Source of the DNA: Bryobacterales bacterium | GTDB lineage: Bacteria; Acidobacteriota; Terriglobia; Bryobacterales; Bryobacteraceae | NCBI GenBank assembly: GCA_026129915.1 | Contig: JAHCHD010000020.1 | Coordinates: 1-45,929, forward strand | DNA length: 45,929 bases | Direction: 5' to 3' | Shown: piece by piece, positions 4,966 through 25,704 of the stretch | How positions within the stretch are numbered: the first letter of the stretch is position 1 | Layout of the letters: each line of letters begins with the position of its first letter | Program-made: the position numbers and the translations under genes | The notes under the pieces: generated by a model | Database searches by the model: none | What the model was told of the DNA's origin: nothing | The model's input: the letters and a program-made list of their open reading frames with translations, nothing else

Positions 4966-6472
4966 GGGCTGGTAGCTCTCCGGTGTGCGGGTTTTGGGTC
5001 TCGGTGATTGCGGCTACTGAACGTGCAAGCAGCGCCGCAGAATCATCCAGGGCGGCATGCGCTGATGCTTTCCAGGCTTCGTTTGCAGTCCACTGATTGT
5101 GGGCACGGTGAATGGCTGCGCGCAAGGTGGAGGGGGCCGGGCCACCGTCCACCTCGCGGAGGTTAACGAAATGGCGAGGGTTCAGAGCGCCACGTACCTG
5201 GGCTTCGCTCAAGGGAAGGGAAGTGCCGAGGACGGCCTGCGCGGCGGTTTCCAACTCCCGGTGGATGGCGTCAAGGGAGTCATCCTGCCCGCAAGCCTTC
5301 ACCGCATGCGATACCACGTCATGCGCCTGGCGGAAGGTAAGGCCCCCGTTGCGGACCAGAGTATCCGCCACTTCGGTAACAGTGATGAACCGGGCACCGG
5401 CGAGGGTTTCCATGCGGGCCGTGTTGATGTGGGCGCCGTCGAACGATGCGTCAAGCAGGCGCAGGGCACGCGCCGCATCCTCAGTGGCTCGAAAGACAGC
5501 AGGCCACAGGTCGTCTTCGCTATCCACGATGTCGCCAAATGGTGTGTTGTGGGCGCAGGTAAGCACTGCCTGGGACTGGGCGAAGGCCCGGCTGCATAGA
5601 ATGCGGGCATGTTCAATGGCCACCGGATTGCGTTTCTGAGGCATGATGCTGGAGATCTGTGCCCACGCATCGCCCACGCGAAGGAAGCCAAATTCCTGTG
5701 TGGACCAGAGCAGCAGATCCTGCGTGAACTTGCCGCAGTTCAGCATCGCGACGGCAATGGCCGACATCGATTCGGTGACATAGTCAATGGCTGCAATGGC
5801 GCCGATGGAATTCTCCTGCAGGCCATCGAAGCCCAGCAATGCGGCGGTGCGGTGGCGGTTGATGGGGAAGCCCGTGGTGGTGATCGCGCAGGCGCCCAGC
5901 GGGTTGCGGTTCACTGTGGCGTAGGCAGCGCGGAGGCGGGTGGCGTCACGTTCCAGGCACTCGATCACACCCATCAGGTAGTGCCCCAAGGTTGTGGGTT
6001 GCGCCGGCTGGGTGTGGGTGTAAGCGGGCATCAGCGTCTCCGCGTGGGAAGACGCCGTTTCGATGAGCGTGCCCTGCAGCCCCAGCAGGTTGCTTAGAAT
6101 TGTAAGAAGCTCCCGCCGTAGCACCATCCGGTAGAGGGTGATGTCGATGTCGTTGCGGCTGCGGGCGGTATGGAGTTTGCCCGCGGTTTCCGGGCCACAT
6201 GTTGCCGCCAGTAACTTCTCTACGTGAAAGAAGAGATCCTCACAGTCGCCGGAATAGCGGACGGTGGCAATGGCATTCACATCCAGTGCGTTCAGCGCAT
6301 CAAGCAGCCGGCCTGCCTCGGGGGTGGAGAGCAATCCGCAATCATGGAGCATGACAGCATGTGCCCGGTGCAGGGCCAGCAGCGGGTGAAGGAACCACCG
6401 TTGGGCGTCTTCGAAGTTCGGGTTCAGCACAGTCTCGGCGTAGACGGGATGGGGAAAGGCAGTCTGGTGCAT
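4958..6472 (-). CDS. argH: Argininosuccinate lyase
   Basis: Protein of 504 aa that splits argininosuccinate into arginine and fumarate. Family motifs appear in order: HTARSRND (101-108), THTQPAQPTT (152-161, general-acid histidine region) and the lyase signature SSIMPQKRNP (274-283) with its catalytic serine. The start was set at MHQTAFPHPVYAETVL (6472) because homology begins there. No strong ribosome binding site is visible, and an in-frame ATG 48 nt upstream (MERGARRS) is possible. Further upstream extension would run into the leader of divergent egtB. It is followed by hemB with an 8-nt overlap, an unusual pairing of arginine and heme genes. Confidence 0.93.
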   Translation of the reverse strand: MHQTAFPHPVYAETVLNPNFEDAQRWFLHPLLALHRAHAVMLHDCGLLSTPEAGRLLDALNALDVNAIATVRYSGDCEDLFFHVEKLLAATCGPETAGKLHTARSRNDIDITLYRMVLRRELLTILSNLLGLQGTLIETASSHAETLMPAYTHTQPAQPTTLGHYLMGVIECLERDATRLRAAYATVNRNPLGACAITTTGFPINRHRTAALLGFDGLQENSIGAIAAIDYVTESMSAIAVAMLNCGKFTQDLLLWSTQEFGFLRVGDAWAQISSIMPQKRNPVAIEHARILCSRAFAQSQAVLTCAHNTPFGDIVDSEDDLWPAVFRATEDAARALRLLDASFDGAHINTARMETLAGARFITVTEVADTLVRNGGLTFRQAHDVVSHAVKACGQDDSLDAIHRELETAAQAVLGTSLPLSEAQVRGALNPRHFVNLREVDGGPAPSTLRAAIHRAHNQWTANEAWKASAHAALDDSAALLARSVAAITETQNPHTGELPAHA

Positions 6473-6704
6473 ACGGTGGAAAGCAAGGGAACGGCGGCTT
6501 CGGCGGGCTCCCCTCTCCATTGTACGGGGTTCGACTTCCGCCGCCGGGGGGCGCCTTTTTCGAAGGGCCAGAGCAGAAACGGTTGGCTTCTGTGAATGGT
6601 CACCTGATCTTAGAACCCCGACGGCTATTGGGGTGCATCTACTAGAGTGGCGCCGGGACCAAACGACGGTGTAAGCTTCGCCTTCCTGAATTGAGCAATT
6701 GCGG

Positions 6705-7928
6705 ATGGTTAACGACAGGATGAGATTGGCGGAATGGGGCATAGCCCGTCGGGCATCAGACCACCTATTTGCCGTGCTTACCGATGGCACGTTGTATCAC
6801 CGAGCGGTAGACGAGCGGCACCGGTTCATCTTCTATTTGGGGCACCTCGAAGCGTTTGACTGGAACCTGCTGGGAGCCGGGCATTTGCGTATGCGTTCCC
6901 CGCGGCCGGAGTGGGACAGTCTGTTTGCCTTCGGAATTGACCCTGGGGCGGATGCCCTGCCCAGCGACCTACCTGAGGACTGGCCAGCGGAGGCCGCAGT
7001 GCGCGGGTACGTGGACTCCGTGAGGGAGGCGCTCGATGCGCGGGTTGCCGCCCTTCCCGCGCAGTTGCTCCAGGTAGCCGTCGAGCATCGCTGGATGCAT
7101 GTGGAGACGCTTTCCTACCTGGTCCACAATCTAGAGTACGAACGAAAGAGGGGCGCTGACGAGGAATACTCCACTAGCGGAGTAACTCCGGAGAACCCCA
7201 TCATCGAGGTTCCGCCGGGCCGGGCCACGCTGGGGCAACGGCAAGGCGAGTTTGGTTGGGATAACGAGTTCCCTTGCCACGCGGTTGCGGTAGACGGCTT
7301 TGCGATGCAACAGCACAAGGTGACCAATGGGGAATACCTTCGCTTCGTTGAGGCTGGTGGCCCCATTCCTCATTTCTGGCGTCATAGTGATGCCGGGTGG
7401 AAGCTGCGCCGCATGTTTTCCGAAGTTGCACTGCCGCTTGACTGGCCGGTGTACGTTACCCATCAACAGGCGTGCGCCTACGCTGCCTGGGCGGGTTTGC
7501 GCCTGCCCTCCGAGGCGGAGTTCCACCGCGCGGCCTATTGCGACTTCAGCGACGGTGAGCGCAACTACCCCTGGGGTGATGAGTCGCCAAATCCCGGGCA
7601 CGGAAATTTCGGTCTGCGGGGATGGAACCCCACTCGCGTGGATGCTCATCCCGCGGGAATTAGCGCTTTCGGGTTCTGGCAGATGGTGGGCAACGGGTGG
7701 GAGTGGACCGGAACCGCCTTTGCCCCCTTTCACGGCTTCCAGGCCTTCCCTTTCTATCGCGGTTATTCCGCGGATTTCTTTGATAATCAACACTACGTGC
7801 TGAAGGGTGGCTCGCCACGGACAGCGCCTCCGCTGCTGCGCCGCTCCTTCCGTAACTGGTTCAGACCCGAGTATCGCTATGCCTTTGCCACGTTCCGCTG
7901 CGTTGCGGATGCCGGAATCCGGCGCTAA
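6705..7928 (+). CDS. egtB: Ergothioneine biosynthesis protein EgtB (non-heme iron sulfoxide synthase)
   Basis: Protein of 407 aa. The N-terminal DinB-like part holds the EgtB iron ligands: H47 in LGHLEAF and the HX3HXE motif HRWMHVE (H128, H132). The C-terminal FGE-sulfatase-type domain has RLPSEAEFHRA, YPWGDE and VGNGWEWT, and ends with VLKGGS, SFRNWFRPEYRY and FRC. EgtB joins a thiol donor to trimethylhistidine (hercynine) with oxygen. The start at ATG 6705 is chosen over a TTG two codons earlier; 6720 is also possible, and none has a good ribosome binding site. The partner egtD overlaps its 3' end. No glutamate-cysteine ligase or EgtC gene is adjacent, which fits a cysteine-using EgtB such as the one described from Chloracidobacterium. 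Confidence 0.87.
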   Translation: MVNDRMRLAEWGIARRASDHLFAVLTDGTLYHRAVDERHRFIFYLGHLEAFDWNLLGAGHLRMRSPRPEWDSLFAFGIDPGADALPSDLPEDWPAEAAVRGYVDSVREALDARVAALPAQLLQVAVEHRWMHVETLSYLVHNLEYERKRGADEEYSTSGVTPENPIIEVPPGRATLGQRQGEFGWDNEFPCHAVAVDGFAMQQHKVTNGEYLRFVEAGGPIPHFWRHSDAGWKLRRMFSEVALPLDWPVYVTHQQACAYAAWAGLRLPSEAEFHRAAYCDFSDGERNYPWGDESPNPGHGNFGLRGWNPTRVDAHPAGISAFGFWQMVGNGWEWTGTAFAPFHGFQAFPFYRGYSADFFDNQHYVLKGGSPRTAPPLLRRSFRNWFRPEYRYAFATFRCVADAGIRR

Positions 7929-8934
7929 CCCAACGAATGGGTCCCTCGGGGCCCGCGAACTCCGCGTCGGCGAGGATCCGCCACAGGGCGAGTTTGAAGC
8001 GGCCCTCGTGATGGGCTTGCGCCGTGAGGCGGGTAAGGAGATTCCGTCGGGTTGGCTGTATGACGAAGTGGGCTCCGCGCTGTTTGAGGCCATCACGCGC
8101 TTGCCGGAATACGGCCTCACCAGGGCTGATGAGCGTGTGATTGCCCGGTGTGCGCCGCGGCTGAGTGACTTCGTCCCGCCCGGCGCTTTTGTGGCGGAAC
8201 TGGGCAGCGGTTCCGGCCGGAAGACGCGCGCCATTCTGGAAGCACTCTCCCCTTCCGTGCACGGCCGGGGACATTTCGCTTATGCGCCCATCGACGTTTC
8301 CCCGTCCGCGCTTGAGGCTTGCGCGCGAGATATGGAAACAATCGAGGGTTTGACGGTCTATCCCACTGTAGGCGCCTATCTGGGTGGATTGGCGAACGCG
8401 ATGGAGCAACGGCAGCCTGGGCAATCCGCACTGCTGCTCTTCCTGGGAAGCACCATTGGCAACTTCAAACGCACGGAGATTGCGCCGTTTCTGGGCGACC
8501 TGCGTGCGCATCTTAACGAAGGAGATTTCCTTCTCCTGGGCGCTGACCTTGATAAAGCAGCGAGCGTGCTGGAGCTTGCGTACGACGATCCAGCGGGCGT
8601 CACCGCCGCGTTCAATCGGAACCTGCTGGGGCATATCAACCGCAGTCTCGGCGGGGATTTTCATCTGCATCGCTTCCGACATCTGGCCGTCTACAACAGG
8701 CAGGAACGGCGCATCGAAATGTACCTGGAGGCCACTGAGGCGCAGCAGGTGTGGATTGAAGAACTGAACTTGAGGGTAAGTCTGCACAAGGGCGAGCGCA
8801 TCCTTACCGAATACAGCCACAAGTTTCGCCTCGACGAGTTGCGGAGCTATGCGAAGGGCGCTGGATTCGTAGTGGACGAAGAGTGGGTGGATCGCGAGTG
8901 GCCATTCGCGGAGTGCCTCTGGCGGGCGGTATAG
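7909..8934 (+). CDS. egtD: L-histidine N-alpha-methyltransferase EgtD
   Basis: Protein of about 341 aa (family about 320) that makes hercynine from histidine with three S-adenosylmethionine. The family opening IPSGWLYDEVGSALFEAIT is followed by the SAM-binding ELGSGSGRKT (97-106) and the conserved GSTIGNF. Near the end, LTEYSHKF fits the EgtD C-terminus. The ATG at 7909 overlaps egtB by 20 bp; an upstream in-frame ATG at 7879 would lengthen the overlap. The overlap implies coupled translation, and the pair forms a minimal ergothioneine operon. No dedicated EgtE lyase is seen next to it. Confidence 0.92.
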   Translation: MPESGANPTNGSLGARELRVGEDPPQGEFEAALVMGLRREAGKEIPSGWLYDEVGSALFEAITRLPEYGLTRADERVIARCAPRLSDFVPPGAFVAELGSGSGRKTRAILEALSPSVHGRGHFAYAPIDVSPSALEACARDMETIEGLTVYPTVGAYLGGLANAMEQRQPGQSALLLFLGSTIGNFKRTEIAPFLGDLRAHLNEGDFLLLGADLDKAASVLELAYDDPAGVTAAFNRNLLGHINRSLGGDFHLHRFRHLAVYNRQERRIEMYLEATEAQQVWIEELNLRVSLHKGERILTEYSHKFRLDELRSYAKGAGFVVDEEWVDREWPFAECLWRAV

Positions 8935-11850: not shown

Positions 11851-12984
11851 TTAGCGCTGCTCGTAGAGATAGACGCAGTTTTCCAGGCGGCTAGCCCCGC
11901 CGTCGTTGACGGCGAAGGTGCGGGAGATAAAACTACCGTCGCTCGACCGGCGGCGACCACTCCAAAGGGAGCCACCGGCGTAGACCTTAACTCTTGCGCA
12001 AGGCATAGAAGTTGATGTCGAACTTCGCCAGCTTGGCCTTGTCGTCGTTGTAGTTGCGGCTAATGCGCTTCAGGGCTTCGAGGATGGCATCCTTCGGAGC
12101 AAGTCCGTGGCGCATGTTCTCAACAATCGTGTGGGCGCCGCACATCCGGATATTCTCTTCTCCCCTGCCTGTGGAGCCCGCAGCTCCTACTTCCTGGTCA
12201 ACAAACACGCCCGCGCCGATGATCGGGGAGTCGCCAACCCGCCCGGGGATCTTCCACGCAAGGCCGCTGGTGGGTGGTAACACCGGACATCCCCCTTGGC
12301 ATTCAGAGCCAGACAGTTGATGGTGCCCGTGGGTGGGTTTACCGCCATGTCGAGCGCCCAGGCGAGCGTGTTCTCGTCGGCATGGGGAAACACCCGCTTC
12401 AGTTCGCCAATCTTGCTCTCTTTCCAATTCGGAGAGTCGAGGCCCTCGTCCCAATTGTTACGTCCCCCGCTGTCGCGCAGTCCGCGCTTCCAAACCAGCC
12501 AGGCCAGCCGGGACTTCTCTGTCAGCAGTTCCTCTTCCTTCATGCCGTAGGCACGGGCGAAGCGAAGCGCGCCTTCTCCGGCCAGCATGATGTGGTCCGT
12601 TTGCTCCATTACGAGCTTTGCCACGCGCGAAGGGTACTTGATGTTGCGCAGGGCGGCTACAGATCCCGCGCGACGGGTAGGCCCATGCATCAGAGAAGCA
12701 TCCAGTTCCACCACACCCTCTTCGTTTGGCAATCCGCCGTAGCCCACGGAACTGTCGTTGGGGTCCTCTTCGTTGATGTTTACGCCGGCGACGACGGCAT
12801 CCAGGGTATCAGCGCCGGAGCGCAATAGTTCCATCGCCCGGGCGCAGGCGCGCTCGCCATTTGCGCTCGAAATCACAATGGACTTTGGAGTACCTTGCTG
12901 GGCCAGTGCGGCGGGCGCCGCGCTCATGGCGGCGGTAGCAGCTAACCAGTCACGGCGTCGCATGGGTGCAGGATTCTGGGGCAA
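11851..12984 (-). pseudogene. Frameshifted glycosylasparaginase (N4-(beta-N-acetylglucosaminyl)-L-asparaginase), Tat-exported
   Basis: Homology runs through three reading frames. Piece one (12984 to about 12285) has a Tat-like MRRRDWLAATAAM and reaches GTINCLALNAKGDV, holding the presumed nucleophile Thr. Reading then shifts near 12270-12290, and the second frame continues TSGLAWKIPGRVGDSPIIGAG and GAAGSTGRGEENIR to FDINFYALRKS, where it stops at 11987. A third frame then continues VYAGGSLWSGRRR, TFAVNDGG and LENCVYLYEQR to a stop at 11851. The family has autocatalytic N-terminal hydrolases that cleave Asn-linked glycan stubs. The TTG start at 12984 lies 5 nt after AAGGAGG, better placed than the ATG at 12963. 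With at least two lesions, no full product is expected, unless these are sequencing errors. Confidence 0.85.
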
Positions 12985-13902: not shown

Positions 13903-15183
13903 ATGAACCAGAAGATTCATCCCCTATCCCGCTTTGAAGTCTCCATCCGTCTTCCTGGCGACAAGTCGATTTCACATCGCTTTGGCATGCTTACGGCCCT
14001 TGCTGAGGGACCAAGCACCATTCACAACTACTCGTCCGGCGCCGATTGCCATAGCACCCTGGGTGCAATGCGTACACTGGGCGCCGAGATAAGCGTGGAA
14101 GGTACCACCGTCACCGTGCGCGGATGCGGCTCAGCGGGTCTGCGTCCACCCACCGTTCCAATTGATTGTGGCAACTCAGGAACAACCATGCGCCTGCTTG
14201 CGGGTATTTTGGCGGGGCAACCATTCGAGTGCGAGTTGTTCGGCGACGAATCGCTAAGCCGCCGCCCAATGGACCGTGTAATGAACCCTCTGGCGCTGAT
14301 GGGTGGGGTACTGGAAGCACGAGATGGCCGCTATCCTCCGCTCACCGTGCGGGGTTGCCAGTTGCAGGGGATTACCTATGCGCCGCCGATGGCAAGCGCC
14401 CAAGTGAAGAGCTGCGTACTGCTGGCCGGGTTGTTCGCAAACGGGGAAACTGTCGTTGAGGAACGGATACGCACGCGGGACCATACCGAGGTTGCGCTTC
14501 GCGAGTTTGGCGCCGACATTTCGGTAATCGGCAAGACCATCCGCGTCCGTGGCGGAAACATACTGCAGGGCCGTGAACTGATGGTTCCCAGCGATCTCTC
14601 TTCGGCTGCGTTTTTTCTATCGGCTGCGCTGCTGGTGCCTGGCAGCTCGCTGCAGATTGCCGGAGTGGGGCTGAACCCGACCCGCACGGCTCTGCTGGAC
14701 TTCCTGGTGTCGATGGGCGCCAACATCAGGATCCTCAATCTGAGCCAGGTGAACGGCGAAATGGTGGGCGACCTGCTAGTGCGGTACGGGCCGTTGAGAG
14801 GTGGCGTGATCGAGAAAGACCTCACCGCTCTGCTGATCGATGAAATTCCGGTGCTTTCCGTACTCGGGGCGGCCAGTGCTGAGGGCCTGGTGGTGCGAGA
14901 CGCCCGCGAACTGCGTGTGAAAGAAACTGATCGTATCGCCACCATGGCCAGCAATCTGCGGGCATTGGGTGCAGAGGTGGAGGAGTTCGAGGATGGCTAT
15001 GCGGTGAAGCCGCTCAGGCAGTTCCGCGCGGGCATTTTCCCCTCGTTCGGAGACCATCGGATTGCGATGTCGATGGCAATTGCTGCGCTGGCGGCGGATG
15101 GAGTGAGCGAGATCGAAGAGGCGGAGGCCGCCTCCGTTTCGTTCCCGGAGTTCTATTCGACGCTGGACATGCTACGCGCCTAG
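13903..15183 (+). CDS. aroA: 3-phosphoshikimate 1-carboxyvinyltransferase (EPSP synthase)
   Basis: Protein of 426 aa, full length for the family. It joins phosphoenolpyruvate to shikimate-3-phosphate on the way to chorismate. LPGDKSISHR (17-26, substrate lysine K21), GNSGTTMR (90-97), RVKETDRI and FGDHRIAMSMAIAAL are all present. The motif style resembles the Bacillus-type enzymes rather than the E. coli type. The start follows AGGGGG by 6 bases. It has its own transcription unit, downstream of a terminator. Its stop is close to the convergent ceramidase-like gene. Confidence 0.97.
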   Translation: MNQKIHPLSRFEVSIRLPGDKSISHRFGMLTALAEGPSTIHNYSSGADCHSTLGAMRTLGAEISVEGTTVTVRGCGSAGLRPPTVPIDCGNSGTTMRLLAGILAGQPFECELFGDESLSRRPMDRVMNPLALMGGVLEARDGRYPPLTVRGCQLQGITYAPPMASAQVKSCVLLAGLFANGETVVEERIRTRDHTEVALREFGADISVIGKTIRVRGGNILQGRELMVPSDLSSAAFFLSAALLVPGSSLQIAGVGLNPTRTALLDFLVSMGANIRILNLSQVNGEMVGDLLVRYGPLRGGVIEKDLTALLIDEIPVLSVLGAASAEGLVVRDARELRVKETDRIATMASNLRALGAEVEEFEDGYAVKPLRQFRAGIFPSFGDHRIAMSMAIAALAADGVSEIEEAEAASVSFPEFYSTLDMLRA

Positions 15184-15275
15184 GCGCCGAAGGTAGCAAC
15201 CTTGCCGTCCGCAGATTTCGCAGGCGCCTCACGAGCAGCATGTTCGCGCGTAGCGGATAGGGCGAAGGTGCGCAA

Positions 15276-16556
15276 TCACGGCCGTCCGGGCTCTTTGTGC
15301 CACATCCCCTTCAAGTCGTAGAGCTGAATGCGGTGCTGGTTGATGATTTCTTCAGCCGCACCCACGGCAATTGTTGTGCTGGTGTCGGCCCCATAACCGC
15401 CGTAGGCTGCGGAACGAATGTCCGGGATGTAACCGGGCCAGCGGTCGGGAGTGGTCTGCGTGTAGCCGAAGAAGAGCGGGTGCGCGGCATCCGCTTCACG
15501 CTTCCAGCGGGTCTGCATTTCGAGAAAGGGCTCACCCGGTACGGTGGCGATTGCGATCTGGCCGTTGATGAGCACAGTGCTCATGCCAAGCGAGACGTGC
15601 TCGCTGGGGTCCCAACGGTCAGGGAACCGCAGAGTGCGGGTGCGGTGGCCGATGGAGGCCGGTGCATCGGCGATTGGGGCGAGGGTCTTCACGGAGCGCA
15701 GCACCTCTTCAGCTAGCAGTTCCCCCATCTTGGTCATGGTGGCTAGGTCCTTTTCTTGGTCGCCCGTGCGCCCCTGGAAGAGGGGATTGGTGCAACCCGC
15801 GGCGCCCTGCACAAACATGGCCTGGACGCCGGGAACAGCTGATTCCACGCGGGCCTGCAGCACGCCGGGAAAGTCCGCTGAATAGACGCAGCTGGTGCTG
15901 CCAAGCACCACCGGATGGGCTGCGTAGTGCATCAGGAGGGCGCGCGGCTGGTCCTGTAGATCGCTCACCTGTAGCAGGACGAACTCAGGATCGACAGGGC
16001 CGTAGGGAAGGCGCTCGAGGTTATCAAATACGGCGCGGGCGCGACCGTCATCACGCAACAGCAGGCGGTTGTAGCCAAGTTGCGAAGAGCCGCGGGCGAT
16101 GCTCAGTCTTGCTTCGAAAGGTTCGCGCATGGCTTCGCGAATGGCCTGGAACAGCTTTTCCTCAAGTTCCGCAAGATAGGGCGAGGGCTCGTCCTTGCTG
16201 CGCAAAGGAGGCAGAAAACGTGGCGCGGAGTGGGTGTGCGAGGGCGCAAGCAGTAGCAGCGGGATATGCAGTTCCTCGGTGACGCGGCGGAACAGGTTTG
16301 GCGCTTCCATGCTCCCGAGGTCCATCGTAACGATTGCCATGCGATTGCCCGCGGCCTCCAGGTAGAGCACTTTGGCGTGGAGCCGGTCATGGACGGAAGA
16401 GGCGTCGCCACAGCGCCGGTTTGAATACCCATACATTGGGCCGAAGAACGAGGGTGTGATGTCTACGCGGGAGAGTCCGGCGCGTAGGGGCGGCTCCTGG
16501 CCCTCAAGGCCAATGGGTATCGAGAAGAACAGCAGAAAGATAAGTAAGTGGCGCAT
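15276..16556 (-). CDS. Exported neutral/alkaline ceramidase N-terminal-domain hydrolase
   Basis: Protein of 426 aa. The start at 16556 is set by GGAGG five bases upstream; the in-frame ATG at 16568 contains that site. A signal peptide (MRHLLIFLLFFSIPIGLEG) precedes LRAGLSRVDITP, the typical opening of this family. Likely zinc ligands lie in PSHTHSAPRF (H107, H109) and AAHPVVLG (H214). True neutral ceramidases are about 650-780 aa and have a C-terminal immunoglobulin-like domain that is absent here, so the substrate need not be ceramide. Proteins of this length are frequent in Acidobacteria and Planctomycetes with unknown substrates. It is divergent from the RraA-fold gene. Confidence 0.83.
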   Translation of the reverse strand: MRHLLIFLLFFSIPIGLEGQEPPLRAGLSRVDITPSFFGPMYGYSNRRCGDASSVHDRLHAKVLYLEAAGNRMAIVTMDLGSMEAPNLFRRVTEELHIPLLLLAPSHTHSAPRFLPPLRSKDEPSPYLAELEEKLFQAIREAMREPFEARLSIARGSSQLGYNRLLLRDDGRARAVFDNLERLPYGPVDPEFVLLQVSDLQDQPRALLMHYAAHPVVLGSTSCVYSADFPGVLQARVESAVPGVQAMFVQGAAGCTNPLFQGRTGDQEKDLATMTKMGELLAEEVLRSVKTLAPIADAPASIGHRTRTLRFPDRWDPSEHVSLGMSTVLINGQIAIATVPGEPFLEMQTRWKREADAAHPLFFGYTQTTPDRWPGYIPDIRSAAYGGYGADTSTTIAVGAAEEIINQHRIQLYDLKGMWHKEPGRP

Positions 16557-16746
16557 GACAACCTCCATGTAGGAGGGATGGTATCAAGGTTTGTGGGCAC
16601 ACTTCCGCCTTGCGGAACAGCGAAGAGGAAAACGAGTCCTGGTGAGAGATGCAACATACCTGTGGCGTGGGGATCTGCATTGGTAATAGAATCATGCCTG
16701 ACTGTTCGCCTGCCGGCGACCAACAAATGTCCCACGTGGAGGGTGT

Positions 16747-17676
16747 ATGCGACTCGTTTCCGCCACCATATCCCGGAGCGTTGTCTCCAGCCTTGCCTGT
16801 TTCCTATTGATTGCCGTATGCCTGACGGCTGTCCCCTTGGCCCAGGCGCAGTTAGGAACCTTCGATAAAGAGAAGCGTGTCGCCATCACACACAAGTGGA
16901 CCGGCGCGCGCGCCGAGGATGGACGCCCGCTGGTGCCTGATGAAATTCTGAAGCGCCTGAAGACCGCCACGGCGGAGGAAGCCTGGGGCGTGCTGCGCGG
17001 TGAAGGCTACAACTACCAGTTCACCGGCGAATGGCAGGTGATCAGCCCTGGGCCCGAACGCACGGTGGGTCGGGTAGTGACGGCGCAGTTCATGCCGGTA
17101 CGCCCGGATATGAATGAGATGATCAACCGGGTGGGCGCCGAGGAAGGGCGCGTAAGCCGCGGCCAGAACTCCTGGGTGATTGACACCCTGCAGCCCGGCG
17201 ACATCCTGGTGGTGGATATGTTCGGAAAGATCAAGGATGGCACCTTTGCGGGCGACAATCTGGCGACGGCCATCTACACCAAGTCAAAGAACGGGTTGGT
17301 GGTGAATGGCAGCGTGCGCGACGTATCGGGCATACAGGAAATTGAGGGGTTTCGCGCCTATGTAAAGGGTGTGGATCCTTCCGCCATTAAGGACGTGATG
17401 ATGGTGGGAATCAATATTCCCATCCGTATTGGGGAAACCACAATTCTGCCGGGGGACATCATGGTAAGCGACCCCGAGGGCCTCACCTTCATTCCGCCAC
17501 ACCTGGCAGAGAAAGTGGCTGATTCCAGCGAGCGCATCCAGATGCGCGACAAGTGGGGCCACCAGATGCTGCGCGAGGGCAAGTACACCCCCGGCCAGAT
17601 CGACACCAAGTGGAGCCCCGAGATGGAGAAGGAATTTGAAGCGTTCGCAGCCAAGGAGCGCGCACGCCGCCAGTAG
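16747..17676 (+). CDS. Exported RraA-fold protein, probable HMG/CHA-type class II aldolase
   Basis: Protein of 309 aa with a Sec signal peptide: a hydrophobic core at residues 12-32, then AQAQ. The mature part is an RraA/demethylmenaquinone-methyltransferase-like domain. It contains D170, exactly 20 residues, then R191-D192, the D-X20-R-D motif of 4-hydroxy-4-methyl-2-oxoglutarate/4-carboxy-4-hydroxy-2-oxoadipate aldolases. The RraA-type acidic residue three positions after RD is missing, since the sequence there is RDVSG. Such aldolases release pyruvate from hydroxy-keto acids using a divalent metal. Export is unusual, because most relatives are cytoplasmic. GGAGG precedes the ATG. The next gene, 36 bp on, is a Tat-exported enolase-superfamily enzyme, implying a joint pathway. 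Confidence 0.85.
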   Translation: MRLVSATISRSVVSSLACFLLIAVCLTAVPLAQAQLGTFDKEKRVAITHKWTGARAEDGRPLVPDEILKRLKTATAEEAWGVLRGEGYNYQFTGEWQVISPGPERTVGRVVTAQFMPVRPDMNEMINRVGAEEGRVSRGQNSWVIDTLQPGDILVVDMFGKIKDGTFAGDNLATAIYTKSKNGLVVNGSVRDVSGIQEIEGFRAYVKGVDPSAIKDVMMVGINIPIRIGETTILPGDIMVSDPEGLTFIPPHLAEKVADSSERIQMRDKWGHQMLREGKYTPGQIDTKWSPEMEKEFEAFAAKERARRQ

Positions 17677-17712
17677 AAGCCAACCGCACCGCAATTCGAT
17701 AAGGAGACATCG

Positions 17713-19068
17713 ATGAAGCAAGCAGTGAAGAACCTCGTAGGACGACGCAATTTCTTCCGCGCTGGCGCAGGGGCGGCCACGGCGGCACTGTTCGCGCACG
17801 ACGACCTGGAGGCCTATCCGCAGAATACCCAGCGGAACTCGAAGCCGTCGGAACTGAAAATTACGGATCTGCGCATCGCGTGGATTCACGAGGCACCCAT
17901 GCGCGTGCCCTTGATTCGGATCGATACAAACCAGGGCATCAGCGGTTATGGGGAAGTGCGCGATGGCGGCGACAAGCGCTATGCCCTGATGCTGAAGTCG
18001 CGGATTCTGGGCGAGAACCCCTGCAACGTAGACAAGATCTTCCGCAAGATGAAGCAGTTTGGCGGACATGCCCGGCAGGCGGGCGGCGTGTGCGGGGTGG
18101 AGATGGCGCTATGGGATCTGGCGGGCAAAGCCTTCGGCGTGCCGGTGTATCAAATGCTGGGCGGCAAGTTTCGGGATAGCATCCGCCTGTATGCCGATAC
18201 CCCGCAGACTTCTGACCCGCAGGTGTTTGGAGAACGTCTGAAGCGGCGCACTGAGCAGGGCTACACCTTTCTGAAGATGGATGTGGGTATCGGCCTGGTG
18301 GAGCAGATTCCAGGCACCGTCAGCCGTCCACTGGGAACCAGCAGCCGCGACTTCGGCCGTGTGCAGCACATGTTCACAGGCATGGAACTGACAGACAAGG
18401 GCGTTGAGCTAATGGCCGAGTATGTGGCCAAGGTTCGTGCCGTGGTGGGCATCGAGGTACCGTTGGCGGCCGACCACTTCGGCCATATTGGTGTGAATTC
18501 GTGCATTCGCCTGGGGCGCGCCCTGCAGAAGCACAACATCGCATGGCTGGAGGACATGATTCCCTGGGAGCACACCGAGCTTTGGAAGCAGATTACCGAC
18601 GCGGTGGATATCCCCACGCTCACCGGCGAGGACATCTACCTGAAGGAACCCTTCAAGGCCCTCTGCGAGAAGCACGCGGTGGATATGATCCACCCGGACC
18701 TTGCCAGCTCTGGCGGCATTCTCGAAACCAAGAAGATTGGTGACATGGCGCAGGAGTACGGCGTGCCGATGGCGATGCACTTTGCGGGTTCGCCCATCAG
18801 CTTCATGGCCAACATCCACTGTGCGGCAGCCACTGAGAACTTCGTTGCATTGGAGCACCACTCCGTGGACGTGCCATGGTGGGAGGATATGGTGACCGGC
18901 CCTGAGAAACCACTGGTGCGAAATGGCTTCGCGATGGTGCCAGACCGCCCAGGGTTGGGCGTCGAGATTGTGGAAGAAGTGGTGAAGCAACATCTTTTCG
19001 AGCCAGGCTACTTCGAGCCCACGCCGGAATGGAACGAAGCCAAAACGAACGACCGGCTATGGAGTTGA
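17713..19068 (+). CDS. Tat-exported mandelate racemase/muconate lactonizing (enolase-superfamily) enzyme, probable sugar-acid dehydratase
   Basis: Protein of 451 aa. The start lies six bases after AAGGAG. The N-terminus has a Tat signal (RRNFFRAGAGAATAALFA, twin Arg 11-12). The barrel domain keeps the metal ligands D254 (AADHFGH), E280 (WLEDMIPW) and E306 (LTGEDIY), a strand-2 lysine K188 (FLKMDVG) and H356 (AMHFAGSP). This set resembles acid-sugar dehydratases such as galactonate or gluconate dehydratase; racemase function cannot be excluded. Tat export implies it folds with its metal before leaving the cytoplasm. It sits directly after the exported RraA-fold aldolase and before a terminator, so the two form an operon. 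Confidence 0.88.
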   Translation: MKQAVKNLVGRRNFFRAGAGAATAALFAHDDLEAYPQNTQRNSKPSELKITDLRIAWIHEAPMRVPLIRIDTNQGISGYGEVRDGGDKRYALMLKSRILGENPCNVDKIFRKMKQFGGHARQAGGVCGVEMALWDLAGKAFGVPVYQMLGGKFRDSIRLYADTPQTSDPQVFGERLKRRTEQGYTFLKMDVGIGLVEQIPGTVSRPLGTSSRDFGRVQHMFTGMELTDKGVELMAEYVAKVRAVVGIEVPLAADHFGHIGVNSCIRLGRALQKHNIAWLEDMIPWEHTELWKQITDAVDIPTLTGEDIYLKEPFKALCEKHAVDMIHPDLASSGGILETKKIGDMAQEYGVPMAMHFAGSPISFMANIHCAAATENFVALEHHSVDVPWWEDMVTGPEKPLVRNGFAMVPDRPGLGVEIVEEVVKQHLFEPGYFEPTPEWNEAKTNDRLWS

Positions 19069-19086
19069 GGATGCATCAGTAGAGCC

Positions 19087-19115
19087 AAGGGGCCGCGCGG
19101 ACGCGGCCCCTTTTT
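19087..19115 (+). terminator. Intrinsic terminator after the RraA/enolase operon
   Basis: An 11-bp stem (AAGGGGCCGCG with its complement) has a CGGA loop and ends in a run of five T. It separates the two-gene operon from the transporter, which would need its own promoter or read-through. Confidence 0.9.
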
Positions 19116-19136
19116 CGTTGGGAGTTGAGAATCTGC

Positions 19137-20249
19137 ATGGACAAGCTGCGGCGGGTTGCGGGAATTGGCGCCATCGTCTTTGGGGCAATGGGTGTATTCA
19201 TCTGGATGAATCAATCGCCGCTGGCGTCTGGCCCGTATGTCATAACAGGGTTGGCGCTAGCCGCCATCTGGGTGAACCTTGGCAAGGATATTCGCAGCTA
19301 CGCGTTCTCTCTATGGGTGTTTTCCGCGGTTGCGACGTCGATGTTCTACCCGGTGGCCTTTGACACCTGGAATGGCTTCAAGATGACGCGCCTGATCTCG
19401 CCACTCATCCAGATCATCATGTTCGGCGTGGGGACGCAGTTGAGCGTCGCCGATTTTACGCGCGCATTCCGCATGCCCAAGGCAGTGATCGTGGGCGTGG
19501 TGGCACAGTTTCTTATCATGCCACTGCTGGGCTTCAGCATCGCCAAAATGCTCGGCTTTGAGGGCGAAGTGGCGGCGGGGATCGTGCTGATTGGTTCGTG
19601 CTCGGCGGGCGTGGCGTCGAACGTGATGGCCTATATCGCGGGCGCCAACGTGGCGCTTTCGGTTACGGTGACGTCGTTCACCACACTGCTCGCGCCCATC
19701 ATGACGCCCCTCGCGATGAAGCTGCTGGCCAAACAGTATGTGACCATCGAGTTCAGCGCGATGATGGTGGACATTCTGTTGATGATCATCACGCCGGTGG
19801 CTGCGGGTTTGCTGGTGAATAAGCTGGCTCATGGCAGGGCGCAATGGTTCGACAAGGCACTGCCGGTGATCAGCATGGTCTCCATCGTGTTCATCATTTC
19901 CATCATCACCGCCAGCTCGCGGGACAAGCTGCTGGACGTGGGCGCACTGCTGATTGTGGCGGCCGTGATTCACAACGGCTGCGGCTATCTGTTTGGCTAC
20001 TGGGGGGCGCGGTTCATGGGGCTTGCGGAAGCCGATTGCCGCGTGGTTGCTTTTGAGGTGGGTATGCAAAACGGCGGAATGGGTTCGGCGCTTGCGATCA
20101 ATGTGCTGAAAAGCACAGACGCAGCGCTGGCCCCAGCGATCTTCGGCCCGTGGATGAACATCTCAGGCTCTGTGCTGGCATCTTACTGGCGAAAGCGCCT
20201 GCCGCCAGGCGCAACGGGCAAGCCGCCAGAGGGCCATCGCGGACACTAG
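19137..20249 (+). CDS. BASS-family (bile acid:sodium symporter-like) transporter
   Basis: Protein of 370 aa, strongly hydrophobic, with about ten predicted membrane helices. Family signatures are SCSAGVASNVMAYIAGANVALSV cut across two segments: GSCSAGVASNV in the first half and FEVGMQNGGMGSALA in the second. BASS proteins move organic anions with sodium; plant BASS2 carries pyruvate. The start at 19137 is preceded by GGGAG at a slightly long spacing. The gene begins 21 bp after the terminator that closes the aldolase/dehydratase operon. Its position suggests uptake of their product, but the substrate is not readable from the sequence. Confidence 0.9.
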   Translation: MDKLRRVAGIGAIVFGAMGVFIWMNQSPLASGPYVITGLALAAIWVNLGKDIRSYAFSLWVFSAVATSMFYPVAFDTWNGFKMTRLISPLIQIIMFGVGTQLSVADFTRAFRMPKAVIVGVVAQFLIMPLLGFSIAKMLGFEGEVAAGIVLIGSCSAGVASNVMAYIAGANVALSVTVTSFTTLLAPIMTPLAMKLLAKQYVTIEFSAMMVDILLMIITPVAAGLLVNKLAHGRAQWFDKALPVISMVSIVFIISIITASSRDKLLDVGALLIVAAVIHNGCGYLFGYWGARFMGLAEADCRVVAFEVGMQNGGMGSALAINVLKSTDAALAPAIFGPWMNISGSVLASYWRKRLPPGATGKPPEGHRGH

Positions 20250-20275
20250 TGCTGCATCCGTGCCGTGCTTGCGCG

Positions 20276-20319
20276 CTGTGCATAAGGCGTACTGTGTATA
20301 AGGCGCACCGTGCATGCGG
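20276..20319. repeat. 16-bp tandem repeat upstream of the DUF1592 gene promoter
   Basis: CTGTGCATAAGGCGTA is followed immediately by CTGTGTATAAGGCGCA (14 of 16 identical) and then a partial CCGTGCATGCGG. The third copy ends where the putative -35 starts, so the array is well placed for a regulator binding site. Confidence 0.6.
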
Positions 20320-20346
20320 TTCACGAGGGTGCGGCTTCGATATAAT
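20318..20346 (+). promoter_or_regulatory. Putative promoter of the DUF1592-DUF1552 operon
   Basis: A perfect -10 TATAAT (20341-20346) sits 17 bp after a weak -35 GGTTCA. A poor -35 with a repeat array touching it suggests activation by a bound protein. The leader to the TTG start at 20466 is about 115 nt. Confidence 0.5.
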
Positions 20347-20465
20347 TGTCAGCAAATTCCCGCGACTAATTGCTAGACAGTCAATCGCGGCTGCACCAGG
20401 TCTCTTCCCACTGCACCGGCGGCGATGACTGCATTCTGGTGTTCGTGATCTCGTCTGGAGGCTTC

Positions 20466-22838
20466 TTGGTTGGATTCCGTCACTCCCGCTGGACTCTTAC
20501 GTCTGCCCTGGCAGTCTTCTTGTGTCTGTGCGTGGCTGCGTTCCTGGGGGCCGACGAGAAGCCGGGAAGCTCAGCTACGGCAGACGCGTTTCAGCAGCAG
20601 GTGGCTCCGTTTCTCAAGCGCAATTGCGTACTTTGCCATCAGCAGAAGAACGCCACCGCCGGACTCGATCTCTCTAGCTTTGCTTCCGCCGCAGTTGCCT
20701 TGCAGCACCCCGAGGTGTGGGAAAAGGTTTCCGCGCGGATCCTTGATGGAACCATGCCCCCCAAGGGCTTGCCCAGCCCGCCGATGGAGCAGCGTGACGC
20801 AGTGGTTGGGTGGATCCGCGATGGACTCGAACAGCTCGCGCGCAATACCAAGCCTGACCCTGGGCGCGTGACGGCGCGCCGCCTGAATCGAGTGGAGTAC
20901 AACAACACCGTTCGCGACTTGCTGGGAGTGGACTTCCAGCCGGCCTCCAGCTTTCCTGCCGATGATGCCGGCTATGGTTTCGACAACATCGGCGACGTGC
21001 TGAGCGTCTCGCCGGTGCTGATGGAAAAATACGTCGACGCCGCATGGGAGATTGCGCAGCGGGCCATCGTGTCGCCGCTTGACCGGATGGAGCCCACGTA
21101 TGCGCGGATCAACGGTGAAGACCTGAGACGGATCGGCAAGGATGCGTCCACAGTGGATGGCGAACTCGCCTTTCCCCACGCGCGAGAGGCTTCCTATGAC
21201 TTTCCCGCCGATGCCGAGTATGAGATCACACTTCGCGTCGCGGATCGCAGGCGCAAGAAAGACTCTGCTGGCCTGATGGCATTGACGGTGGTGGGGCACG
21301 CCACACCCCAGGTGTTCGAAACGCAATTGCCCAGCGGCGGAGAGGATCCGCCCAACGAGTTCAGCATCCGTGTCCGCGTTCCGGCCGGGAAACAGACCCT
21401 GCGGGCGGCCACCGTGGGCGCGGAGATGCAGGCGCGGGTGTACCACGACGAAGCGGACGCCAGCCGCTTCATTGATGCCGGCCACTTTGAGGTGCGCGGT
21501 CCCTTTGGAGAGCCCCGGCGCGCCATCACCCATAGCCATCGCCAGATCTTCGTATGCAGTCCCCGTAGTAAGGCCGAGCAGCCTGCGTGTGCCTCGCGCA
21601 TCCTGAAGCGGCTGGCGCGGCTGGCATACCGTCGTCCCGTGACTGAAGCCGATGTGAAGCCTCACATTTCCCTCGCCGCCGAAGCCCGCGCGGAGGGCTT
21701 TCCGTTTGAAGAGCAGATTCGGCTGGCGCTGCAGGGAGTGCTGGTGTCGCCGCAGTTTCTGTTCCGGATTGAGCGCGGTGGAAAGCCCGTCGGCGAGGGA
21801 GACGTTCGGGCGTTGACGCCAGTGGAACTCGCGTCCAGGCTTTCGTACTTCCTGTGGAGCAGCATGCCGGACGAGGCTCTGCTTAGCGCCGCCGAGCGGG
21901 GAGAACTGCAGACGCGCGAACAGGTGCGAAGCCAGGTGCAGCGTATGCTTGCTCATCCTAAGTCGCGAGCATTAACTGAGAACTTTGCGGGCCAATGGCT
22001 GCGGCTGCGAAACATAGACCTTGTGCAGCCGGACCGCGACCTCTTTCCGGAGTTCGATGCCAGTCTGCGTCGCGCGATGAAGCGCGAAACCGAACTGATG
22101 TTCGAGGCCTTGTTGCATGAAGGCGGTACGGTGGACGACATCCTGGTGGGTGAGTTCACGTTCCTGAATGAACGCCTGGCGAAGCACTATGGTATCAGCG
22201 GGGTGAATGGCGAGGAGTTCCGGCGAGTGCCCCTGGCCGGCACGCGCCGCGGCGGTATGCTGACGCACGCCAGTCTGCTGACGATTTCGAGCTACCCCAC
22301 TCGTACATCGCCTGTTCTTCGCGGATTGTGGCTACTCGAAAGCGTGATCGGCGCTCCGCCTCCGCCCCCGCCGCCGGATGTCCCGGAACTCGATGCGGAA
22401 GGCGTGGGCGAAGCCGCTACGCTGCGGGAGCGCATGGAGAAACACCGCGGCGACCCCACCTGTGCTGCCTGCCACAGTAAAATGGATCCACTAGGGTTCA
22501 GCCTGGAAAACTACGACGCCATCGGCCGCTACCGCGAGACCGAAGGTAAGTTTCCCATTGATGCTTCCGGCACTTTGCCCGACGGTGTTAGTTTTGACGG
22601 GCCGGAGGGCATGAAACGGGCGTTGCTTGGCCAGCGCCGCCAGATTGCCGCGAACCTCGCGGAGAAGATGTTGACCTTCGCGCTCGGCCGGGGACTGGAG
22701 CGTTACGACCGCGCCGCTGTGGAAACGCTTACCGCTTCCATGGAAGCGAATCAATATCGGATTGCCACTTTGGTGGAAGAAATCTGCTGGAGCATGCCTT
22801 TCCGCATGCGCCGCGGTGAAGGAGTCGCCCAGCCATGA
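20466..22838 (+). CDS. Exported DUF1587/DUF1592/DUF1588/DUF1585 protein with c-type haem motifs
   Basis: Protein of about 790 aa. The TTG at 20466 lies 4 nt after TGGAGG and gives a neat signal peptide (TLTSALAVFLCLCVAAFLGA). Domains in order: Planctomycete-type cytochrome c with CVLCH (C54, C57, H58); DUF1587 (LNRVEYNNTVRDLLGVD); a carbohydrate-binding-like stretch; DUF1592 (LSYFLWSSMPDEALLSAA); DUF1588 with a second haem-like motif CAACH (C666, C669, H670) and KMDPLGFSLENYD; and DUF1585 at the end. These proteins are common in Planctomycetes, Verrucomicrobia and Acidobacteria, are thought to act in periplasmic redox or polymer degradation, and have no proven function. The gene overlaps the DUF1552 gene by 4 bp. 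Confidence 0.9.
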   Translation: MVGFRHSRWTLTSALAVFLCLCVAAFLGADEKPGSSATADAFQQQVAPFLKRNCVLCHQQKNATAGLDLSSFASAAVALQHPEVWEKVSARILDGTMPPKGLPSPPMEQRDAVVGWIRDGLEQLARNTKPDPGRVTARRLNRVEYNNTVRDLLGVDFQPASSFPADDAGYGFDNIGDVLSVSPVLMEKYVDAAWEIAQRAIVSPLDRMEPTYARINGEDLRRIGKDASTVDGELAFPHAREASYDFPADAEYEITLRVADRRRKKDSAGLMALTVVGHATPQVFETQLPSGGEDPPNEFSIRVRVPAGKQTLRAATVGAEMQARVYHDEADASRFIDAGHFEVRGPFGEPRRAITHSHRQIFVCSPRSKAEQPACASRILKRLARLAYRRPVTEADVKPHISLAAEARAEGFPFEEQIRLALQGVLVSPQFLFRIERGGKPVGEGDVRALTPVELASRLSYFLWSSMPDEALLSAAERGELQTREQVRSQVQRMLAHPKSRALTENFAGQWLRLRNIDLVQPDRDLFPEFDASLRRAMKRETELMFEALLHEGGTVDDILVGEFTFLNERLAKHYGISGVNGEEFRRVPLAGTRRGGMLTHASLLTISSYPTRTSPVLRGLWLLESVIGAPPPPPPPDVPELDAEGVGEAATLRERMEKHRGDPTCAACHSKMDPLGFSLENYDAIGRYRETEGKFPIDASGTLPDGVSFDGPEGMKRALLGQRRQIAANLAEKMLTFALGRGLERYDRAAVETLTASMEANQYRIATLVEEICWSMPFRMRRGEGVAQP

Positions 22839-24202
22839 CGAGCACCAGCGCCATCACGCGCAAGCGCCTTTCCCGCCGGACCCTGCTGCGAGGGTTAGGC
22901 GCCACCGCGCTTGGTCTGCCCTTTCTGGAGGCGATGACGCCAGCGTTTGCCACGAAGCACGAGGTGGCGGCGTCGTCGCCCCTCCGGCTTGCGTTTGCCT
23001 ATGTGCCGAACGGCGTCACGATGGACCAATGGACGCCAGCGGAAATCGGGCGTGGCTTTGAGCTCACCCGGATCCTGCAGCCCCTTGCCAGCGTGCGTGA
23101 GAACGTAACGGTGCTAAGCGGCTTGGCCCAGCACAACGCGAAGGCGCTTGGAGATGGTCCGGGTGACCACGCCCGCGCCGCGGCTGCGTTTCTTACCGGT
23201 GTACACCCGCGCAAGACGGACGGCGCCAACATCCAGAATGGCGTTTCGATTGATCAGGTGCTGGCGCGGCAATGGGAGAGCCACACCCGCTTCGCTTCAC
23301 TCGAACTCGGCACTGAGTACGGCGGGGTAGTGGGCAATTGCGATTCCGGCTACAGTTGCGCGTACACGAATAGCCTGGCTTGGCACAATGAGACCACCCC
23401 TCTGCCCCCGGAGATCAATCCCCGGTTGGTGTTCGAGCGGCTCTTCGGCGCGTCGCGCAACGGGGAGACGCCCGCCGAAGCCCGCCAGCGCCAGCGTTTC
23501 CAGCGCAGCGTCTTGGACAATGTGCAGGAGGATACCGCGCGCCTGATGCGGGATCTCGGACCCACCGACCGCCGCAAGCTTGACGAGTATCTCTACGCGG
23601 TGCGGGATGTGGAAAAGCGGTTGGCGCGGGCCGCGGAGCATCCCGTGGTGGAAGTGGACATGCCAAAACCTTCGGGCATTCCGGCGCGGTTTTCTGACCA
23701 CCTTTCCCTGATGTACGACCTGATGGCAATTGCCTTCCAGACGGATTCGACAAGGGTAGCCACGCTAATGGTGGGCCGCGAGGGTAGCAGCCGTACCTAC
23801 CGGGAAATCGGTGTGCCGGACGCGCACCATCCCCTCTCGCATCACCAGAAGAATCCGGAGAAGATCGAGAAGATCACCCAGATCAACACCTTCCACATGA
23901 GCCTGTTCGCGAAGTTCTTGGAGAAGATGCGTTCAGTTCCCGAGGGCGACGGGAACTTGCTGGAACGCAGTGTGGTGGTGTACGGCTCATGTATCGGCGA
24001 CGGCAATCGTCATAACCACGACGAACTCCCGGTCTTGCTGGCCGGCGGCCAGGCGGCAGGGTTCCGGGACAACCAGCATCTGCGCTTCCCGAAAGATACT
24101 CCCATGACAAACCTCTACCTGACGCTGCTGGAGAAACTGGGCGCCCCTATCGAACAGTTCGGCGACAGCACCGGCCGCATTCAGGAATTGAGTGGGCTGT
24201 AG
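22835..24202 (+). CDS. Tat-exported DUF1552 family protein
   Basis: Protein of 455 aa that starts inside the stop of the DUF1592 gene (ATGA overlap), so translation is coupled. The Tat signal is SRRTLLRGLGATALGLPF (twin Arg 14-15). Family features include RLAFAYVPNGVTMDQWTP, FLTGVHPRKT, DHARAAAAFL and, near the end, VVYGSCIGDGNRHNHDELPV. DUF1552 belongs with the DUF1501/sulfatase-like alkaline phosphatase superfamily and nearly always accompanies DUF1592 genes. No function is established. The pair probably forms one periplasmic system. Confidence 0.92.
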   Translation: MTSTSAITRKRLSRRTLLRGLGATALGLPFLEAMTPAFATKHEVAASSPLRLAFAYVPNGVTMDQWTPAEIGRGFELTRILQPLASVRENVTVLSGLAQHNAKALGDGPGDHARAAAAFLTGVHPRKTDGANIQNGVSIDQVLARQWESHTRFASLELGTEYGGVVGNCDSGYSCAYTNSLAWHNETTPLPPEINPRLVFERLFGASRNGETPAEARQRQRFQRSVLDNVQEDTARLMRDLGPTDRRKLDEYLYAVRDVEKRLARAAEHPVVEVDMPKPSGIPARFSDHLSLMYDLMAIAFQTDSTRVATLMVGREGSSRTYREIGVPDAHHPLSHHQKNPEKIEKITQINTFHMSLFAKFLEKMRSVPEGDGNLLERSVVVYGSCIGDGNRHNHDELPVLLAGGQAAGFRDNQHLRFPKDTPMTNLYLTLLEKLGAPIEQFGDSTGRIQELSGL

Positions 24203-24317
24203 GCAGGGCGCCAATCGCGCATCGGTGCATCGGGGCTGCATCTAGAGAGTCTGCATCGAGTCGCCCGCGCGGCAGGACTTACGTGTAGACTGATGGGCAA
24301 ATCACGGAGTGTCTATC

Positions 24318-25580
24318 ATGCAACCCAATCGCCGCCGTTTCCTCGCTGCTTCCGCCGCGGGAAGTCTTGCTTCCCTCACTTCCTGCGCCACTGCGGAGTC
24401 CTCGGCCGAGGCTCGCTTTCAGCAACTCGGGGAGATCCTCAAGCAGCCCGTGCTAAAGAAGCAGTTGTTCAGCTCCCCGGTGATCATCGAGACGCTGGAA
24501 CTGTTGCGGCTGGGGAATACCTTTCTGTGCCGCGTGCGCTCGCGCGACGGCGCCGAAGGCATTTCCGTGGCGCATAGCGGGATGAGCACGCTATACCCCA
24601 TCTTCCTTAAGAGCTTACGGCCTTTCTTCCTGGGCAAAGATGCCCGGGAGCTCGACCTGATTCTCGACAAGGTGTATATCTACGGGTTCAATTTCCGCTT
24701 CAGCGGAATGGCGCTTGGCTTGCCTCTAGCCACCATCGAGTTTGCCATTCTTGACATGCTGGGGCGCATTGCGCAGAAGCCCGTGGGCGAACTGATCGGC
24801 GACATTCACAATCCCGCCGTGGGTGTCTACATGGCCACCGAGTGGCGCGAGAAGCCGGTGGCGGAATCCATCAAGCTCATCCAGGATGCGGTTGCTTCCT
24901 ACGACGTGCATGCGCTGAAGATCAAGGTGGGTGGCCTGATGTATATGACCACCGACATGTATGCCGAGGGTCCGAAAGGACGTACCGAGGAAATCGTCCC
25001 GCTTGTGCGAAAGACCTTCGGGGACGGCATGGCGCTTTATGCTGACTCCAACAGCTTCTACACGGTGCCGGAAGCAATCCGGGTGGGCCGGCTTCTCGAA
25101 GAGTACAAGTTTCGCTATTTCGAAGAGCCGGTAATGTTCGATCACCTCGATGAAATCAAGCAGGTGGCCGACGCCCTGACGCTTCCCATCGCGAATGGCG
25201 AGCAGGACTACAGCTTCTACGGGTTCCGCTGGCTTCTCGCCAATGAAGGACTGGATATCGTACAGCCCGACAACTACTACTTTGGCGGACTAGTCCGGTC
25301 GATGAAGGTGGCGCGCATGGCGGCCGCCTGTGGCAAGGAAGTGATCCCGCACATGTCGGGCGGTGGCTTGGGCTTCCTCTATAACATCCAGTTCGTCTCC
25401 GCGGTTGCGAACGCCGGCGAGCATCACGAGTTCAAGGGTCTGAATACCCACGTGAAGTATGAATGCAAGACCTCGCCCCTTACCGTGGTGGACGGGAAAA
25501 TGATCGTGCCAACGGGTGCCGGTTTCGGCGTGGATTTCGACCCTGATTGGGTGAAGACGCACGAAGCCGTGTCTGCCTAG
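24318..25580 (+). CDS. Second Tat-exported enolase-superfamily enzyme, likely a lipoprotein
   Basis: Protein of 420 aa. The ATG at 24318 lies 8 nt after GGAG. The Tat signal [20 protein letters not shown] ends in a lipobox-like LTSC with C23, so it may be membrane-anchored. The barrel keeps K201 and K203 (LKIKVGG), D243 (YADSNS), E269 (YFEEP), E295 (NGEQD) and H345 (IPHMSGGG), the full mandelate racemase-type catalytic set. Substrate unknown: the KxK motif with a histidine is compatible with racemase or acid-sugar dehydratase chemistry. It differs clearly from the enzyme at 17713. It follows the DUF1552 gene by 115 bp on the same strand and converges with the esterase. Confidence 0.87.
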
Positions 25581-25704
25581 AGCGGCGGTAACGGGCGCCG
25601 CAGGCAGTTCCTACAATCGGGCACACGCCTTCGAATGCCGCTAAGGAATTCCCATGATGGAATCAAGTTGTCCTGGTACCGGTTGGAGGCGAACTGACGA
25701 AAGA

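Follow-up and report, generated by a model that had tools for sequence, protein, structure and literature searches.

A 45,929-nucleotide stretch of DNA from a Bryobacterales bacterium (hereafter the window; it spans the whole of contig C113 in a draft genome of 5.28 Mb) carries on its plus strand a run of three mutually adjacent genes, encoding an RraA-fold protein (RraA), an MR/MLE enolase-superfamily protein (MLE), and a BASS/SBF transporter (SBF), each with Pfam matches well over cut-off. The co-occurrence of RraA and MLE in other genomes and the pairing of predicted export signals on the two are strongly supported. Whether RraA and MLE form a conserved exported pair that performs sequential dehydration and cleavage in the periplasm, with the product imported by a neighboring carboxylate carrier, we regard as an even call.

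In the proposed pathway, MLE would act in the periplasm as a dehydratase, forming a 2-keto-3-deoxy acid from a sugar acid; RraA, also periplasmic, would act as an aldolase, cleaving this acid to pyruvate plus an aldehyde; and a neighboring carboxylate importer would likely take up the cleavage product, presumably pyruvate. An earlier sequence-only reading of the window had proposed such a pathway. It is partly borne out. Its pairing of RraA with MLE and its paired signals have strong support, and its dehydratase-then-lyase logic has gained separate backing from other loci; its transporter part holds only in some loci, and pairs without clear signals, whose chemistry would need no periplasm, go partly against it.

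Pairing of RraA and MLE across genomes

An RraA alignment search of GTDB genomes gave at least 575 confirmed relatives, of which the best 80 loci were examined; an MLE partner was defined as a >500-bit match within 3.5 kb of RraA. Such a partner was present in 43 of the 80 loci, across five named phyla. With phyla binned by hand, the fractions were 23/46 in Acidobacteriota, 14/19 in Poribacteria, 3/4 in Bacteroidota, 1/2 in Omnitrophota, 1/1 in Verrucomicrobia, 1/1 where the phylum name was absent, 0/5 in Latescibacterota/Gemmatimonadetes, and 0/2 in Chloroflexi. Among 150 genomes of the window's order, RraA was found in 99 (E 1e-20), MLE in 67 (E 1e-110), and SBF in 23 (E 1e-40). Thirty-one of 74 MLE hits (>580 bits, from 64 genomes of the order) had a listed RraA no more than 3 kb away, versus an expectation of 0.17 calculated from the numbers of genes and a genome size taken as 6 Mb, so that adjacency is ~180 times the chance expectation; MLE also sat beside 21 RraA genes out of the closest 27, a set that includes the window's own. 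The 80-locus and 150-genome samples overlap, several loci being from the same species (e.g., L004 and the G010 locus, whose N-termini are identical). Distances among RraA proteins covaried with those among their MLE partners (Mantel r 0.89 for 44 pairs and 0.72 for the 30 non-Poribacteria pairs, reached in 0 of 2000 permutations each), a correlation to which shared ancestry adds.

That unrelated MLE and DgaE families, expected to make the same type of product, alternate beside RraA is the strongest indirect argument for its consuming 2-keto-3-deoxy acids. DgaE, an ammonia lyase, converts 2-amino-2-deoxy aldonate 6-phosphates to 2-keto-3-deoxy acids. In nine of the 80 loci (eight from Acidobacteriota and one, L060, from Bacteroidia), a phmmer search with the L017 protein showed a DgaE-type pyridoxal phosphate protein in place of MLE. 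All nine homologues begin with a twin-arginine motif (the L038 gene is divided between two open reading frames, ORFs), and a homologue of RidA, an enzyme of imine clearance, with a similar N-terminus lies within 3.5 kb in seven of them. The closest solved chain to the L017 protein is 7lc0. Given DgaE chemistry, these replacements independently support a dehydratase-then-lyase order. Sugar-acid context also appears in single loci: an SMP-30 lactonase homologue follows MLE in L163 and is present in the RraA–DgaE locus L060, and UxaC and UxaE are encoded close to MLE in L177.

Five of 20 fetched, more distant RraA loci adjoin an MLE of another subfamily (196–235 bits). One of these, L114 (G000:C146:1000-17000), belongs to the window's own genome; at 5747-8068 it holds a divergent second RraA with a signal-like N-terminus, beside and convergent with a second MLE of the twin-arginine (Tat) type. 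Other distant RraA paralogues directly adjoin genes that, by eye and from N-termini only, resemble phosphoglycerate kinase (L118, L124, L126) or aconitase (L115, L128), and L123 contains two tandem RraA paralogues (5779-7454). In Poribacteria a cluster recurring in L050, L052, L055, L058, and others comprises a xylose-isomerase-like TIM barrel (PF01261), RraA, an AstE-like zinc hydrolase, and MLE, together with PhyH-like (by eye) and Gfo/Idh/MocA genes; signals are apparently absent from this pair.

Families, active sites, and predicted export signals

RraA matches PF03737 at 76.1 bits and has an intact D170-X20-R191-D192, as the sequence-only reading had noted; the three residues are conserved in 79, 81, and 81 of 81 sequences, respectively. 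Asp-X20-Arg-Asp is the motif that names class II pyruvate aldolases of the RraA fold, and from its sequence RraA is predicted to be a class II pyruvate-type aldolase. Homologues at E 1e-10 or better number 4835, the close named relatives belong to Bryobacterales (Acidobacteriota), and source annotations of the family vary (RNase E regulator RraA, HMG aldolase, RraA family protein). RraA scores below cut-off against the HMG/CHA aldolase models NF006731 (73.5/179 bits) and TIGR02798 (69.2/304.5 bits). The motif D, R, and D align with those of the HMG/CHA aldolase structure (PDB 3noj), described in the excerpted report as a class II pyruvate aldolase (PMC5065237). That enzyme, however, belongs to aromatic degradation, and its alignment to RraA is limited to residues 144-256 (49.8 bits). 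In the same excerpt, the R123K change in the Pseudomonas putida enzyme lowers kcat 181-fold.

MLE has both the C- and N-terminal domains of the MR/MLE enolase superfamily (PF13378, 169.5 bits; PF02746, 46.1 bits, each above its cut-off), together with the three acidic residues that bind metal in this superfamily. Residues K188, D190, D254, E280, E306, D329, H356, and E381 are invariant in all 54 distinct sequences (repeats dropped), which bears out the D254/E280/E306/H356 set picked out earlier; D254, E280, and E306 are the metal ligands, H356 and D329 form the His-Asp dyad, and there is a variant motif, D-H-[FLY]-G-H. Its residues mark MLE as a member of the enolase superfamily whose acid/base set is unusual. 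From its best curated models, which are galactonate, gluconate, mannonate, and arabinonate dehydratases, each below cut-off, MLE is likely a sugar-acid dehydratase. The five nearest solved structures carry putative names only. A second twin-arginine MR/MLE protein is encoded in the window at 24309-25580 (+), after DUF1592-type and DUF1552 genes; it has 27% identity to the MLE of the pair.

Signal-like N-termini were called by visual inspection and with a fixed rule: for RraA, a mean hydropathy of 1.6 or more over 10 residues ahead of the RraA domain, and for MLE, RR followed by a hydrophobic stretch ahead of the MLE domain. Patterns that match the Sec-type signal on RraA and the Tat signal on MLE proposed earlier are recognizable in the N-termini. 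That of RraA is hydrophobic and terminates in ...LAQAQ/LG, with Q-L-G identical throughout 16 aligned sequences; that of MLE, GRRNFFRAGAGAATAALF, has the Tat pattern, and TatC is encoded in the window's genome. By the hydropathy rule 57 of the 80 RraA proteins were positive. In the 43 RraA–MLE pairs, both partners were positive in 29, neither in 11, and RraA alone in three. These three (L053, L055, L067) are from Poribacteria and have a hydropathy of 1.62, whereas the remaining positives reach at least 1.93; by eye, their stretch falls within the domain or in an over-long ORF.

Locus layout and neighboring transporters

The RraA and MLE genes are separated by exactly 36 bp, the figure given by the sequence-only reading, and this spacer includes AAGGAGA five bases upstream of the MLE ATG. 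The BASS-family transporter that was said to follow the pair does so, adjacent and on the same strand (PF01758, 134.1 bits, cut-off 24.3).

Features of the RraA–MLE–SBF locus, in positions of the whole window
Feature	Position	Strand	Basis
RraA-fold protein, 309 aa; predicted Sec-type signal at about residues 1-34; D170/R191/D192	16747..17676	+	PF03737; motif alignment; solved chains closest to it, 5x15 and 3noj
MR/MLE enolase-superfamily protein, 451 aa; predicted Tat-type signal	17713..19068	+	PF13378/PF02746; 54-sequence alignment; E. coli DgoD alignment
Terminator-like hairpin: stem of 11 pairs, nine of them G-C, then a T run	19087..19112	+	Hairpin scan; folding
BASS/SBF transporter; start ATG 19137 likelier than the TTG 19125 of the ORF	19137..20249	+	PF01758; PanS; solved chains 3zuy, 8oyf, 3zux

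The hairpin between MLE and SBF is a strong one and has the longest stem among five terminator-like sites found in 15000-25700. The number of such sites is not above chance because shuffles average 8.4, a statistic that covers site count and not stem length. At its MLE–SBF junction the near relative L003 carries a comparable GC hairpin with a T run; L004 has no clear T run there. Given the hairpin, a strict three-gene operon in the window was rejected. Three Chitinophaga loci (L063, L064, L077; two with DSM numbers) have a three-gene order identical to that of the window, with MLE and SBF 15 bp apart in L063 and 18 bp apart in L077, and with overlapping called ORFs in L064. Because these organisms share the order, the proposal is testable now.

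The transporter beside the pair is interchangeable. A BASS gene lies within 3.5 kb of RraA in six of the 80 loci, from three phyla (two Acidobacteriota, one Verrucomicrobia with another gene order, and the three Chitinophaga). At the same distance, LctP, of the lactate/glycolate family, occurs in seven loci, all Acidobacteriota (e.g., L018, 483.8 bits, cut-off 341.15), TctA plus TctC in one, and an MFS protein (>150 bits) in nine, all Acidobacteriota. Plant BASS proteins transport pyruvate, glycolate, and 2-keto acids, according to the portion of PMC10645422 consulted. Since unrelated small-carboxylate carriers alternate near RraA, import of the cleavage product would be fitting; MFS and Tct could carry the sugar acid instead.

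Taken with the DgaE-type loci, this interchangeability would fit a broader scheme, which we put a little below an even chance: a modular, periplasmic, phosphate-free pathway resembling that of Entner and Doudoroff. In it an exported RraA-fold aldolase would be fed either by a Tat MLE, from sugar acids, or by a Tat DgaE-type protein with an exported RidA, from amino-sugar acids, and BASS, LctP, or Tct would import the small keto acid only.

Competing readings and related systems

A number of observations weigh against the reading of RraA and MLE as an exported dehydratase–aldolase pair. Both proteins fall below every curated NCBIfam cut-off listed, as does the L017 DgaE-type protein for TIGR01437 (168.7/385.3 bits) and NF047797 (128.8/600 bits). 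The standard galactonate dehydratase active site is absent from MLE: in the alignment with E. coli DgoD, the DFHGR of D-galactonate dehydratase (GalD) becomes DHFGH, placing F256 at the position of the DxH His, the general acid of GalD. Across the 54 MLE sequences this position is F in 41, L in nine, and Y in four, and H255 and H258 are invariant. With that His replaced, dehydration by MLE is not certain; the protein lacks the DxH His and scores below the cut-off of the D-galactonate dehydratase model PRK14017 (199.1/311 bits). The pairing has gaps as well. Neither MLE nor DgaE was found within 3.5 kb in 28 of the 80 RraA loci (some contigs end sooner), and of the order's 74 MLEs, 43 lack a listed RraA inside 3 kb; where MLE has no RraA next to it, the 20 loci read had neighbors that looked mostly unrelated by eye (a few loci are cut by contig ends). 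The association of the two signals (Fisher P 6e-8) is not phylogenetically independent: all 14 non-positive pairs are from Poribacteria, and the paired-signal correlation therefore reflects a handful of events at best. Poribacteria thus retain the pair without signals. The sequence-only reading had named signal-less homologues as evidence against itself; the 14 Poribacteria pairs, with no clear signal, are of that kind, and the 29 of 43 with both signals are on its side. Because the Poribacteria pairs carry no clear signals, export is best seen as a variant, the chemistry needing no periplasm. Finally, the hairpin may uncouple the transporter from MLE.

Among 13 BASS loci of the order outside the window's genus (of 31 rows listed), none has BASS beside RraA (L144 ends just past BASS), and by the coordinates listed, this BASS lies near a listed RraA only in the window and in G010, a genome of the same genus. 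One of the 13, L155, adjoins a Tat MLE. The expectation that all three genes would co-occur holds for RraA and MLE and only partly for BASS, which is near the pair in six of 80 loci and gives way to LctP or Tct in others. The reading of BASS as an obligate partner was set aside on the counts above.

The main rival chemistry is of the FlDet type. FlDet is an RraA-family 2-keto-3-deoxy-glucarate dehydratase/decarboxylase from an alginate degrader (excerpt of PMC8563752), and it resembles RraA in family and in acting on a 2-keto-3-deoxy sugar acid, the substrate type proposed here. RraA could then convert an MLE-made 2-keto-3-deoxy aldarate to alpha-ketoglutaric semialdehyde and CO2, the semialdehyde being imported or oxidized. 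Such a step is also compatible with a position downstream of an MLE dehydratase. We nevertheless think this reading unlikely. The DgaE-type partners, given the chemistry of their family, indicate 2-keto-3-deoxy aldonates, and since the purified native FlDet retains its initiator Met, no signal is removed from it. As a related system, FlDet also differs in catalyzing a reaction other than the one proposed here, and the excerpt mentions no MLE partner.

Equally unlikely, in our view, is that MLE is an epimerase, a racemase, or a dehydratase of non-sugar hydroxy acids, and RraA a decarboxylase of the oxaloacetate type or an aldolase acting on aromatic-derived acids. The deviation of D-H-x-G-H from GalD is consistent with this, as are RraA scores of 69-74 bits, below cut-off, against CHA aldolase/oxaloacetate decarboxylase models. 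On the other hand, MLE matches models of sugar-acid dehydratases best, even if it stays under their cut-offs; DgaE, SMP-30, and UxaC with UxaE are among the neighbors in single loci; and no aromatic-ring enzymes were recognized by eye in the neighbor lists examined. That the pair is cytoplasmic, or a by-product of many exported paralogues with incidental transporter adjacency, is improbable: signal-less Poribacteria pairs and the abundance of MLE paralogues (the 67 matching genomes have between 9 and 124 first-look candidates) speak for it, and the signal-like N-termini on both partners in several phyla and the excess of adjacency over chance speak against it.

Among the known systems closest to the predicted exported pair are the non-phosphorylative sugar-acid pathways proposed at large scale for SAR202, which combine mandelate-racemase-family enzymes with COG3836/COG0329 aldolases (excerpt of PMC10444878). 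There too an enolase-superfamily enzyme feeds a keto-acid lyase free of phosphorylation; here, by contrast, the putative aldolase has the RraA fold, and export signals are predicted for the two enzymes. E. coli DgoD shares 28% identity with MLE, and its metal ligands and His-Asp dyad align; it differs in the motif noted above and in beginning at the domain, and its operon, unlike the RraA–MLE pair, includes the kinase gene dgoK and the phospho-aldolase gene dgoA. SBF belongs to the same family as the PanS/BASS transporters (NF047939; 3zuy, 8oyf), with which an EVGMQN stretch aligns; PanS is its nearest curated family, but SBF falls below the PanS cut-off (251.7/400 bits). Non-phosphorylative sugar-acid pathways with MLE enzymes are thus already known, and the new elements would be an RraA-fold aldolase in a sugar-acid pathway and the export of both steps. 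The earlier view that no pathway of this layout had been described agrees with our search of the PMC open-access literature, in which no description of an RraA–MLE pair was found. If the proposal is true, sugar-acid dehydration and C-C cleavage, part of central carbon breakdown, would occur beyond the cytoplasmic membrane in several phyla represented largely by metagenome-assembled genomes, and the exported branch of the large RraA family would gain a function.

Elsewhere in the window, an Asparaginase_2 protein encoded on the minus strand (11987-12984) seems by eye to run on in a second frame (ORFs 12187-12984 and 11987-12454), which makes a frameshift or sequencing error likely.

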